This document shows positions 26,293 to 30,087 of a stretch of DNA of 64,000 bases, piece after piece. The notes beneath the pieces were generated by a model. It did not search any database. It saw only the letters and a list, made by a program, of their open reading frames with translations, and was not told the origin of the DNA. Source of the DNA: Pedobacter aquae (GTDB lineage Bacteria; Bacteroidota; Bacteroidia; Sphingobacteriales; Sphingobacteriaceae); the NCBI RefSeq assembly GCF_008195825.1, contig NZ_CP043329.1, forward strand, positions 3,038,001-3,102,000. The letters are read 5' to 3'. The first letter of the stretch is position 1. Every line of letters starts with the position of its first letter. The position numbers and the translations under genes are program-made.

Positions 26293-27477
26293 TTAAGGTG
26301 CTGTTCTTCTACTCCCATCGTACAATTCATACTCTAACAATCTACAATCTAGTTTACCGTTGTAAAATTCTATCCTTTTAGATGCTCTTAAGCCTATTTT
26401 TTTAGCTAAATCTGGGTTTCCAGTAAAAATGTATCCATTATACCCTTTACACTCTTTCTTCATGAAATCACCAATTCTAGCGTAAGTAGCCTCTAGTTTG
26501 CTGTGTATACCTAAACGTTCGCCATACTCGGGGTTAAACATAATCACCCCCGCTTCATCCTGAGGGATTCTGGTATCGGCAAAATCGCAAGCATAAAACT
26601 CAATCAATTGGTCTACACCAGCGGTTTTAGCATTCTTTTTACTGATGTCTATAGCATCCTCAGAAATATCTGTAGCAATAATTTTTAAATCTTGATTTTT
26701 AACTACTTGGTCTTTTAGCTTTCTTCTTTCGGTAAAGAAAACCTCTTCCTCATAACCTAAAATATGCATAAAAGCATAATTCATTCTTAACAAACCAGGC
26801 GTTCTGCCTGTTGCAATTAAGGCCGCTTCTATGGCTAAAGTTCCAGAACCGCACATCGGGTTTATAAAAGGAGATTTAAAATCCCACTGTGTAGCTAAAA
26901 TGGTTGAGGCTGCAAGCGCTTCTAACATGGGTGCTTTGCCAGGTATTTTCCTATAGCTGTGTTTAGCTAAAGTTTCTCCTGATGTGTCTAAAAAGATTTC
27001 TGCCTTTTCATTTTTCCAATATAAATGCACTACTGTTTTAGTGTAATCCGGACCAGAGTTTGGTCTTATTTTATGTACAGATTTAATCCTATCTGCAATA
27101 GCATCTTTAACTTTTAAATTGGCAAACAAAGGTGTGGTAATGGTAGAATTATCCACATTTGAGGTTACAGAGAAATATCCACTAAAATCTATCAATTTCT
27201 CCCACTCTATGGCGGTAACTTTTTGATACAGCTCTTCGCCATTTTCAGCATCAAATTCTTGAAGGCTGTAAAGCACCTGACTGGCGCATCTGAGGTTGAG
27301 ATTCAGCCTGATACAATCATTTAAACTTACTTTAAGCTCTAGTCCTGTAGAAAAAATTCTAACAGGTTTAAAACCTAAGTTTTTCACTTCTAATTCAAGA
27401 TATGGCGACAATCTTTTGTTGCAGGTTATGATAACCTTTGATGGGGTGTTGAAAACTTGATGCATAAGAATGCGCAA
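26293..27477 (-). CDS. THUMP-domain RNA methyltransferase (RlmL/TrmN-like)
   Basis: A 394-residue class I SAM-dependent methyltransferase. The N-terminal half (about 1-165) holds a ferredoxin-like plus THUMP RNA-binding region, with a D-T-S-G-E-T-L-A-K-H-S-Y-R junction that marks this family. The catalytic domain has P-M-C-G-S-G-T-L-A-I-E-A (SAM loop), I-I-A-T-D-I-S-E-D-A-I and the active motif N-P-E-Y-G-E-R-L, where other members have N-P-P-Y-G. The Tyr is kept and one Pro is replaced by Glu, as seen in many Bacteroidota homologues. It methylates guanosine in rRNA or tRNA in the known members. It is divergent from the DUF3127 gene. Confidence 0.87.
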   Translation of the reverse strand: MRILMHQVFNTPSKVIITCNKRLSPYLELEVKNLGFKPVRIFSTGLELKVSLNDCIRLNLNLRCASQVLYSLQEFDAENGEELYQKVTAIEWEKLIDFSGYFSVTSNVDNSTITTPLFANLKVKDAIADRIKSVHKIRPNSGPDYTKTVVHLYWKNEKAEIFLDTSGETLAKHSYRKIPGKAPMLEALAASTILATQWDFKSPFINPMCGSGTLAIEAALIATGRTPGLLRMNYAFMHILGYEEEVFFTERRKLKDQVVKNQDLKIIATDISEDAIDISKKNAKTAGVDQLIEFYACDFADTRIPQDEAGVIMFNPEYGERLGIHSKLEATYARIGDFMKKECKGYNGYIFTGNPDLAKKIGLRASKRIEFYNGKLDCRLLEYELYDGSRRTAP

Positions 27478-27530: not shown

Positions 27531-27902
27531 ATGGAGATAAAAGGAAAAGTTCATGAAGTATCTGAAGTCATGAACGTTACTGATACATTTAGAAAAAGAG
27601 AGCTTGTTGTTGAATTTGCCGAAAACCCTCAGTACCCGGAATACGTAAAATTTGAAGCAATACAAGACAGGGTTTCATTAATGGATAATCTTAAAGTTGG
27701 TGATGATGTTGAGGTTGCCTTCAATTTAAAAGGAAGACCCTGGACAGATAAATCAGGTAAGAAACAATATTTCAATACTTTACAAGTTTGGAAAGTAACC
27801 GTATTAGGTGCTGATGCAGGTGCTCCTGCTCAAACACCACAATTTGCAGCACCAGTTGATATTAGTGCGGCACCAGAGGCAGATGACGATTTGCCGTTTT
27901 AA
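27531..27902 (+). CDS. DUF3127 protein with SSB-like acidic tail
   Basis: A 123-residue cytosolic protein of the Bacteroidota DUF3127 family. Residues 1-98 look like a single beta-barrel domain (M-E-I-K-G-K-V-H-E-V, E-L-V-V-E-F-A-E-N-P, G-D-D-V-E-V-A-F-N-L-K-G-R-P-W), similar in layout to an OB fold. A flexible Ala/Pro-rich linker follows, ending in D-D-D-L-P-F at the very C-terminus. That tip closely matches the D-D-D-I-P-F tip that bacterial SSB uses to recruit repair proteins. A single-strand-binding or SSB-partner role is my inference. A terminator follows. Confidence 0.85.
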   Translation: MEIKGKVHEVSEVMNVTDTFRKRELVVEFAENPQYPEYVKFEAIQDRVSLMDNLKVGDDVEVAFNLKGRPWTDKSGKKQYFNTLQVWKVTVLGADAGAPAQTPQFAAPVDISAAPEADDDLPF

Positions 27903-27930: not shown

Positions 27931-27967
27931 AAAAAGCGGCACCGATCCCAAAGGTTGACCGCTTTTT
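27931..27967 (+). terminator. Rho-independent terminator after the DUF3127 gene
   Basis: AAAAAGCGG at 27931-27939 is complementary to CCGCTTTTT at 27959-27967, and further T residues follow on the forward strand. It lies 28 bases after the stop codon. The A run on the other side could let it work in reverse too, but no reverse gene ends here. Confidence 0.7.
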
Positions 27968-28220: not shown

Positions 28221-30087
28221 ATGAGGCGTAAAAGTATATCGGTTATTATTGGTTTAATGAGTTTCGCATTGCTGGGCGTAATGGCCATGCAGTATTATTT
28301 CTTAAAGGAATCTTATCAACTAAAAACTCAGATTTTTGATAGTGCCGTAAACGATGCCTTAAAAAGTGTAGCTTATAAATTAGAAAAAAATGAGGCCGCT
28401 ACCTTTTTGGCTCAAAAAGCTGATAACGATAAAAAAATCAGAGCGCTTGATAAGCTTTCCCAAGACATGAGGCTTACGCAAAAAACCATAAAAACACTTC
28501 CTTCAGAAAAAACAAATCCCAAAGAAAATCCTTCTCTAGCCTTTATCAGACAGCTTAAAAAAATCAAGAAAAATCTGATAGTATTTTTAGGGTTAGAGAT
28601 AGTATTTTAAGAAATAAATACCCTAATATCTTAGTTTACAATGGCCCTGCGCAACAAGAAGCGCCAGATAATGTGATTGCGGGTGTAAGGTTTGATTTTG
28701 AAGAAGTTACTGATGAATTTGGCGTAAGACAAAACCTAGTTAAACAGGTATATACAGAACGAGGTCCTCAGAGAAAAAAACCAAGAAGAGGTAATGTTGT
28801 AGTAGACTCTATCAAACAATATGTTATTGTAGACCCTGTCTTAGGCCCTGTTGTGCGCACCATTGGCAAGCCAAATTACTTATCAGAAATAAGTGAAACA
28901 GAGCTTGCAGCAGCAGAAAAAACCATCAACAATAAAGAAAAAGTAAAAGATGTTAAGCTTTACCTAGACTCGGTACAAAAAATCAGTAATAAAAAGAGAT
29001 TTTAGACGACTTAGCTTCAGAATTTCAGCAGGCAAATGTGCCCCTACATAAACGTATTAAACCAGAACTTTTAGACTCTTTATTACTTATAGAACTGGCT
29101 AATAACGGCATCATGCTGAAATATAGCTACCAAATAAGCTCTAATAAAAACTCTAGAATTTTATTCAGAAATGCATCATATAATAACCTGGATTTTGAGC
29201 CAGAAAACACCTATAAAGCAGCCTTATTCCCTAAAGATATGGTGCGTGAGGGCGGTTATTTAATGGTAAGTTTTCCAGAGAAAAATAGTCTCATTCTCAA
29301 AAACATGAACTCTATTTTGGCTTCATCCATAGGTTTATTATTGATTTTAACCGGAAGCTTCGCTTATACCATTTTCTCTATTTTAAGGCAGAAAAAGATC
29401 TCAGAGATGAAAACAGATTTCATCAATAATATGACACACGAGTTTAAAACTCCGGTAGCCACCATCATGATAGCTAGCGAAGCTTTAAGAGACCCAGATG
29501 TTAATGAAGACCGTAAGCGGGTAAGTAAGTTAGCAGGTATCATTTACGATGAAAATATACGCCTAGGAGATCATATAGAAAGGGTTTTAAACATTGCCCG
29601 CATAGAAAAAGACGATTTAAAAATAGAACGTAAAGAAGTTAATATTCATGATTTAATTCATGCCGTTTCTGATAGCATGAGCTTACAGCTACAAAAGAAA
29701 AATGCTAAAATCAACATGAACCTTTTGGCTACAAAATCAACTATCTTAGGCGATGAGTTACACCTTTCTAATGTATTTTATAATCTTATTGATAATGCTA
29801 TAAAATACAGCAAAGAAGCGCCAGAAATTACCATTAACAGCAATAATACCCATGCTGATTTTGTGATTACTGTTACCGATAACGGTATAGGTATGGGAAG
29901 AGACCAACAAAAGAAAATTTTTGAGCAATTTTACCGCATACCAACAGGTAACTTGCATGATGTAAAAGGTTTTGGACTAGGCTTAAGCTATGTGAATAAT
30001 ATGGTGAAAAGAATGGGCGGAACTATAAAAGTGAAAAGCGAAAAAGATAAAGGCTCTGAATTTGAGCTTAGATTTCCATTAGCGTAA
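28221..30087 (+). pseudogene. Sensor histidine kinase, two one-base frameshifts
   Basis: Three frames join into one kinase of about 622 residues. The first part (28221-28610) has an N-terminal membrane helix; the middle (to 29005) is extracytoplasmic. The third has the second helix (S-I-G-L-L-L-I-L-T-G-S-F-A-Y), HisKA with the phospho-acceptor in N-M-T-H-E-F-K-T-P, the N box N-L-I-D-N-A-I-K-Y-S, and G boxes D-N-G-I-G-M-G and G-F-G-L-G-L-S. The breaks lie at A7 (28557-28563) and A5 (28991-28995); one A added at each gives N-Q-E-K-S-D-S-I and K-K-E-I-L-D-D-L-A without loss. It pairs with the OmpR-type regulator 11 bases downstream. Confidence 0.88.

Follow-up and report, generated by a model that had tools for sequence, protein, structure and literature searches.

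The gene at 27531..27902 (+) of the window, i.e. of the whole 64,000-nucleotide stretch of Pedobacter aquae DNA analyzed here, encodes a protein of the DUF3127 family, which is probably a strongly diverged protein of the single-strand binding (SSB) type: it is expected to coat single-stranded DNA (ssDNA) and to dock partner enzymes, acting as the SSB in phages and, in hosts, in a role beside SSB. The open reading frame starts with ATG and codes for 123 aa ending in EADDDLPF; the coordinates include the stop. The Pfam profile of the family (PF11325) matches residues 2–89 with positions 1–84 of its 85 (E 4.6e-26; 91.3 bits against a cut-off of 27), and this is the single DUF3127 gene of the genome (3.85 Mb, one contig).

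The core of the protein is predicted to fold as an OB barrel. AlphaFold2, given an alignment of 65 sequences (the window protein and related loci), returns a model with a mean pLDDT of 84.1, about 94 in the core and 54–64 per block in residues 91–123. The barrel, residues 1–93 (27531..27809, +; block pLDDT 88–95 over residues 1–90), features five strands (residues 2–10, 21–29, 37–44, 59–72 and 78–92), with one helix (45–51) between strands three and four. When the model is compared by Foldseek to the PDB, SSBs make up all of the best 50 among 1048 matches (lowest E 3.4e-6, with a TM of 0.73 by target length); VIA-align, applied to the Foldseek candidates, places the SSB of Salinibacter ruber at the top (Z 12.1, with 91 residues at an rmsd of 2.5), mitochondrial SSBs and PriB being within 1 Z of it. 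An OB chain of the T7 gp2.5 / DUF2815 type is not found among the Foldseek and VIA-align matches listed. The preliminary description had supposed an OB-like core, and a confident predicted OB barrel, with SSBs as its nearest solved folds, agrees with it; a non-OB fold, which would have spoken against it, did not occur.

PriB shares the SSB-like fold; fold alone, therefore, does not confer SSB function, and the prediction supports an SSB-type barrel which, by itself, does not separate SSB from PriB. The protein might thus be a PriB-like primosomal factor, of SSB fold, mainly aiding PriA in fork restart, with a tip added. PriB structures are present among the VIA-align matches, tied with SSBs (1woc, Z 11.4; 3klw, 11.5), PriA is encoded in the same genome, and PriB with a fused SSB tail is described as having higher ssDNA affinity and PriA stimulation (PMC8509808). 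This alternative is unlikely: PriB, as described in the same source, does not have an SSB tail, while one is found in the window protein and a PF end in 131 of the 133 family members surveyed; the 50 best Foldseek matches mentioned above are SSBs, and several phage copies of DUF3127 sit in recombination and primase modules.

An SSB-type protein is also indicated by sequence comparisons. With BLASTP, the window protein and the SSB of its own genome align over 131 positions at 27% (E 3e-7, calculated for this one comparison, to which the tip contributes), and phmmer, against the sequences of solved structures, finds the D. radiodurans SSB first (E 4.5e-4), followed by the E. coli one (0.013) and by other SSBs. 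In PHROGs, a full-length match, tip included, is obtained to phrog_4932, "single strand DNA binding protein" (E 8e-29). PF00436, the canonical SSB family, shows no match to the window protein at E up to 1, and in NCBIfam only SSB models match it, with 12–14 bits against cut-offs of 54–260; since both the Pfam and the NCBIfam SSB models stay below cut-off, the protein is SSB-like, and is not filed as a PF00436 SSB. When profiles are compared after removal of the tail, DUF3127 matches SSB with E 4.5e-6 (3.1e-6 for the wider family), the match being confined to one hairpin within residues 52–91; comparisons anchored on the more divergent copies L012 and L017 are weak (E 0.0014 and 0.0016, probability 16–18%). 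The profile match to SSB is therefore good only when anchored on the subfamily of the window protein, and on one hairpin; it is not family-wide.

Four aromatic residues of SSB stack on ssDNA: Trp40, Trp54, Phe60 and Trp88 (PMC3991886, PMC5945547). In the phmmer alignment, Trp54 of the E. coli protein corresponds to Tyr35 (27633..27635, +), Phe60 to Phe41 (27651..27653, +) and Trp88 to Trp71 (27741..27743, +), located in the hairpin GRPWTDKSGKKQYF, the one that carries the tail-free profile match to SSB; Trp40 has no alignable counterpart in DUF3127. The Tyr35 position is Y or F in all 65 alignment members and aromatic in 127 of the 133 survey copies; at the Trp71 position, 64 of 65 members have W or Y, and 127 of 133 copies have W, Y or F. 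Position 41 is F in 39 of 65 and 42 of 133, and otherwise mostly aliphatic. Well-conserved aromatic counterparts are found, as a result, for only two of the four E. coli stacking positions.

The barrel is followed by an Ala/Pro-rich linker, residues 94–117 (27810..27881, +), predicted to be disordered (pLDDT about 54–61) and of high entropy in the family, and by an SSB-type C-terminal tip, DDDLPF, residues 118–123 (27882..27899, +), assigned by sequence and by family conservation. The DDDLPF end after a flexible Ala/Pro linker, as first read, is therefore present, residues 91–123 as a whole being rich in Ala and Pro. Conservation of the tip was evaluated on 133 DUF3127 copies from 130 genomes across the phylum, part of 218 positive genomes: best-scoring copies were chosen, one or few per genus, together with the lowest-scoring ones listed; the copy under study, three second copies and the apparently broken L135 are included, while a copy cut by a contig end (G257) and unlisted rows are excluded. 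131 of the 133 copies end in PF, and the loss of conservation that would have counted against the early reading of the tip did not occur. The last two residues are P in 98% and F in 98% of the copies, with an entropy of 0.1 bit each; linker positions -9 to -25, in the same copies, have 3.1–3.9 bits each. The commonest end is DDLPF (77 of 133), and PF preceded by two or more acidic residues within positions -4 to -8 is found in 130 of 133; position -3 is other than L in a quarter of the copies. A DLPF end is present in all 80 titled genome loci (the best 80 of 590 confirmed, mostly from Sphingobacteriales), and a PF end in 71 of 79 complete IMG/VR viral copies (from the best 80 of 570 confirmed, not dereplicated) and in 9 of 10 copies from named phages.

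Exceptions are few. In the survey set they are L060 and L124, both of family f13 and the only copies of that family examined, which keep acidic ends, P-F being absent; the canonical SSB of one f13 genome (G006, L338) keeps DDDLPF, so that a natural tip loss is seen in its DUF3127. Among viral copies, an identical pair (L237/L238) and the copy of Polaribacter phage Freya_1 (L307, 3989-4273), the exception among named phages, which stops at the barrel end, are 90–94 aa long, without linker or tip; six further viral copies end otherwise than in PF. Taken together, these copies indicate that the tip is not essential everywhere. In L135 (G077:C4:116703-116967), the DUF3127 match falls into two adjoining pieces, as if frameshifted.

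The family tip may also be compared with that of the SSBs of the same bacteria. In the phylum survey, the 30 canonical SSBs with the best scores (L313–L342) all end in DDLPF, and the published SSB of F. psychrophilum ends in DLPF, as given in PMC3991886; since the SSB of the genome under study shares this end, the tip of DUF3127 agrees with the SSB tip of these bacteria, and not just with that of E. coli. The same ending could, instead of or besides docking, act as a tag for degradation by ClpXP: in S. mutans, SsbA ending in LPF is reported to be degraded by ClpXP, and a C-terminal LPF sufficed for the degradation of GFP (PMC5143411). The same report describes LPF recognition as absent in S. 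gordonii and S. sanguinis, and as shown for only some S. mutans strains; in DUF3127, moreover, the acidic residues of the tip, needless for recognition of LPF alone, are kept, and L at -3 is replaced in a quarter of the copies. A degradation tag is thus very improbable, and docking is the preferred role of the tip.

A Pfam profile search identifies two PF00436 SSBs in the genome under study. One (L002), taken here as the host SSB, lies beside a mutY-like gene, so named by reading its sequence, and ends in DPVDDDLPF. The other (L003 1489-1827, -; C1 near 3821990) is 112 aa long and has neither linker nor tip. When the DNA pattern for D-D-[FLIMV]-P-F-stop is searched genome-wide, over 3.85 Mb, three places are found, against one for a reversed control pattern: the mutY-adjacent SSB, the DUF3127 gene, and a 96-aa protein without a Pfam match. 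The last (L136 1228-1518, +; C1 near 338367) ends in EDDDLPF and overlaps the end of a DUF2779 ORF; it may be a mimic of the SSB tip, or a partner. The preliminary description held that the DUF3127 tip nearly equals an SSB tip: the likeness is real, and in its own genome the two are identical, not merely near. It also spoke of a second SSB-type hub; this stands in that DUF3127 is the second tip-bearing SSB-like protein, and is to be amended in the count of genes, because two PF00436 SSBs, one tipped and one tipless, make it the third SSB-like gene. RecO and PriA are both encoded in this genome.

Of 392 genomes sampled across the phylum, 218 have DUF3127; for the class of the window, the count is 102 of 105: 12 of the same family, the genome under study included, and 90 others, with three misses. 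Canonical SSB is found in 381 of 384 sampled phylum genomes, a sample overlapping, not identical to, the former; SSB being near-universal, DUF3127 as a rule adds to the host SSB rather than replacing it. The named close relatives belong to Sphingobacteriales, e.g. Mucilaginibacter and Pedobacter. Location in chromosome or prophage was checked for the 80 titled genome loci. A plasmid gene in general is ruled out, DUF3127 being present in 2 of 72,556 plasmid records.

In the window, the divergent neighbor of the gene is an ORF at 26293..27477 (-), a putative RlmL-like methyltransferase, so named from Pfam matches of upstream neighbors at other loci (5 of 48); it is reported for context only, as it lies outside the system. 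A divergent RlmL-like gene is found directly upstream in 73 of 80 genome loci (the best 80 of 590) versus none of 80 viral ones (the best 80 of 570), a pattern suggesting that, in Sphingobacteriales, DUF3127 is a core gene inherited vertically. Just 3' of the DUF3127 gene, an inverted repeat (AAAAAGCGG / CCGCTTTTT; 27931..27967, +), whose arms are separated by 19 nt and which has a T-run, is a possible terminator; a terminator scan around the gene, which accepts loops of 3–8 only, reports none, and a promoter scan around it is uninformative. Further downstream, the region 28221-30087 (+) reads, by its sequence, like a histidine kinase; it is divided into three ORFs in three frames (28221-28610, 28673-29005 and 29038-30087), so that the gene may be broken or hold sequence errors.

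In other lineages, the neighbors are tRNA synthetase domains, dnaN, aat and others; they vary by family, and most are not DNA-repair genes. In family f11 (L004, L010, L015, L022), DUF3127 is divergent from dnaN, the sliding-clamp gene. A conserved host operon was sought in 49 loci, chosen from L004–L063, and rejected: among the first 25 of 44 upstream and of 58 downstream Pfam families, none exceeds 5 of the 48 ORFs upstream or 3 of the 49 downstream. Host neighbors are therefore lineage-specific and do not point to a pathway. RNA-binding proteins often have OB folds, and some of these neighbors are compatible with an RNA-binding OB protein of translation or RNA maintenance, whose acidic tail would be an autoinhibitory mimic of DNA or RNA: RlmL-like methyltransferases (5 of 48 upstream), threonyl/alanyl-tRNA synthetase domains (5 of 48) and leucyl/phenylalanyl-tRNA transferase (3 of 49). 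Such a protein is quite unlikely: these RNA-linked neighbors differ between lineages, DNA SSBs come out best in both structure and sequence comparisons, exonucleases and annealases accompany the viral copies, and a mimic tail would need no invariant P-F end.

When searched by tblastn, DUF3127 is found in 119 phage records at E up to 0.01, 79 of them from Flavobacterium phages and 17 from Polaribacter ones, many near-identical. Gene context was inspected in ten records of named phages. P12024L features the order Erf, YqaJ exonuclease, DUF3127, with a primase three genes on. DUF3127 accompanies RecT in phi18:3, GDF21 and Freya_1, a helicase and a primase in mymlan6-1, a primase/helicase and NinG in morran9-1, and RusA and replication genes in Fpv7; NinG is found close by in Gundel_1 and further off in Harreka_1. 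For LoVEphage, the annotation shows no recombination or replication neighbor of DUF3127. The GenBank record of Tenacibaculum phage Gundel_1 (MT732474.1, 68927-69289) labels the DUF3127 protein "DUF3134", likely a slip.

A wider neighbor scan covered 150 of 163 ORFs around 44 viral loci, 13 having been dropped by hand. Exonucleases and Erf annealases lead the tally: phrog_5715 (12 ORFs), phrog_149 (10), exonuclease VIII (6) and the RecE-like phrog_434 (6) among the former, two families with 5 matches each, one of them phrog_155, among the latter; one ORF can match several phrogs. Integrases (3 and 3) and a structural-protein family (4) are also present. The corresponding Pfam matches include the PDDEXK family DUF3799 (6), ERF (5) and YqaJ (5). 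Canonical SSB, searched as PF00436 over cut-off, is found in none of the 49 viral records bearing DUF3127 (10 named, 39 from IMG/VR, many viral contigs being fragments), hence DUF3127 appears to be the phage's SSB there. The 12 weak PF00436 matches in these records all correspond to the DUF3127 gene itself, the best scoring 22.2 bits against a cut-off of 26. Conversely, DUF3127 is found in none of four Bacteroidales phages with canonical SSB; these share an alike gene order around ssb, and the sample is consequently close to one observation. In phages, DUF3127 is most likely the SSB of an annealase-exonuclease or replication module. In a tree of 178 rows and 118 columns, where many forks are weak, viral and genome copies are interleaved, with 23 label changes, at least 6 of which are forced by supported branches.

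The tip of E. coli SSB is described in structural terms in PMC10164576: its final Phe lies buried in a hydrophobic pocket, the carboxylate being held by a basic lip and the Asp residues by a basic ridge; partners no longer bind once the Phe is lost, and RecG, too, binds the tip. DUF3127 keeps these features of the peptide, from which we infer that its barrel coats ssDNA and that its tip docks the same enzymes. The barrel would oligomerize and bind ssDNA through Tyr35, Trp71 and neighboring aromatics; the DDDLPF tip would enter the hydrophobic-pocket and basic-ridge sites of partners used by the host SSB tip, and these enzymes would thereby be brought to DUF3127-coated ssDNA. The host copy would work beside canonical SSB, perhaps in recombination or repair rather than in bulk replication; this choice of process is a guess, and the least certain step. 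The phage context favors recombination and repair as the process served.

A broader hypothesis, for which the chances seem to us slightly below even, is that an alternative SSB lineage is common to Bacteroidota and their phages: the only SSB of the phages and, in most of the class of the window, a second tip-bearing hub, competing with canonical SSB for partner pockets and switching repair and recombination enzymes between two ssDNA filaments, with repeated gene exchange between phage and host. For the phage copies, an SSB identity is already on record, as PHROGs and many RefSeq records carry the label. Literature searches on DUF3127, PF11325 and related terms, most subscription papers being outside their reach, found no description of a second SSB of this family that is encoded by a Bacteroidota host and bears the tip. 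Should the SSB-type reading be right, a family of unknown function would become a second ssDNA-binding hub of a bacterial class (102 of 105 sampled genomes), and studies of replication restart and RecO-type recombination considering ssb alone would miss a possible competitor with the same tip. Partner choice between two identically tipped proteins could be tested directly, and phage SSB-like proteins missed by the Pfam SSB model might be useful for annealase-based genome editing in Bacteroidota.

Among known systems, PHROG_4932 and the RefSeq phage "SSB" proteins are phage members of the DUF3127 family; their label is an annotation, while the copy in the window is a gene of a bacterial genome. 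Pantoea phage AAS23 gp25 is reported, by sequence and HHpred, as an SSB with an SSB-type OB domain and a DUF3127 superfamily domain (PMC8004638). Enc34 ORF6, a DUF2815 phage SSB, is a precedent, in that a phage DUF was demonstrated to be an SSB that has an OB fold and an unstructured, acidic C-terminus; its OB fold is of the T7 gp2.5 type, and its family is another than DUF3127, according to PMC5686142. PriB resembles DUF3127 in having an SSB-like OB fold without being the main SSB; it differs, in the description of PMC8509808, by the absence of an SSB tail and by its primosome function. SsbB and SsbC of Firmicutes, like DUF3127, are extra SSBs beside the main one (PMC5945547). As given there, SsbC is near SSB in sequence, sharing 33–38% identity with its paralogues and with E. 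coli SSB, and S. aureus SsbC and several SsbB, unlike DUF3127, do not have the acidic tip. Canonical SSB itself (PF00436; E. coli and the host L002) differs in having a core of about 108 residues in the host protein, against about 93 in DUF3127; the latter is encoded at a separate locus, coexists with it, scores under the PF00436 cut-off and is without the Trp40 position. The two share a predicted OB barrel of the same type, a flexible linker, an aromatic residue at the Trp88 position and, for the host SSB, an identical DDDLPF tip.
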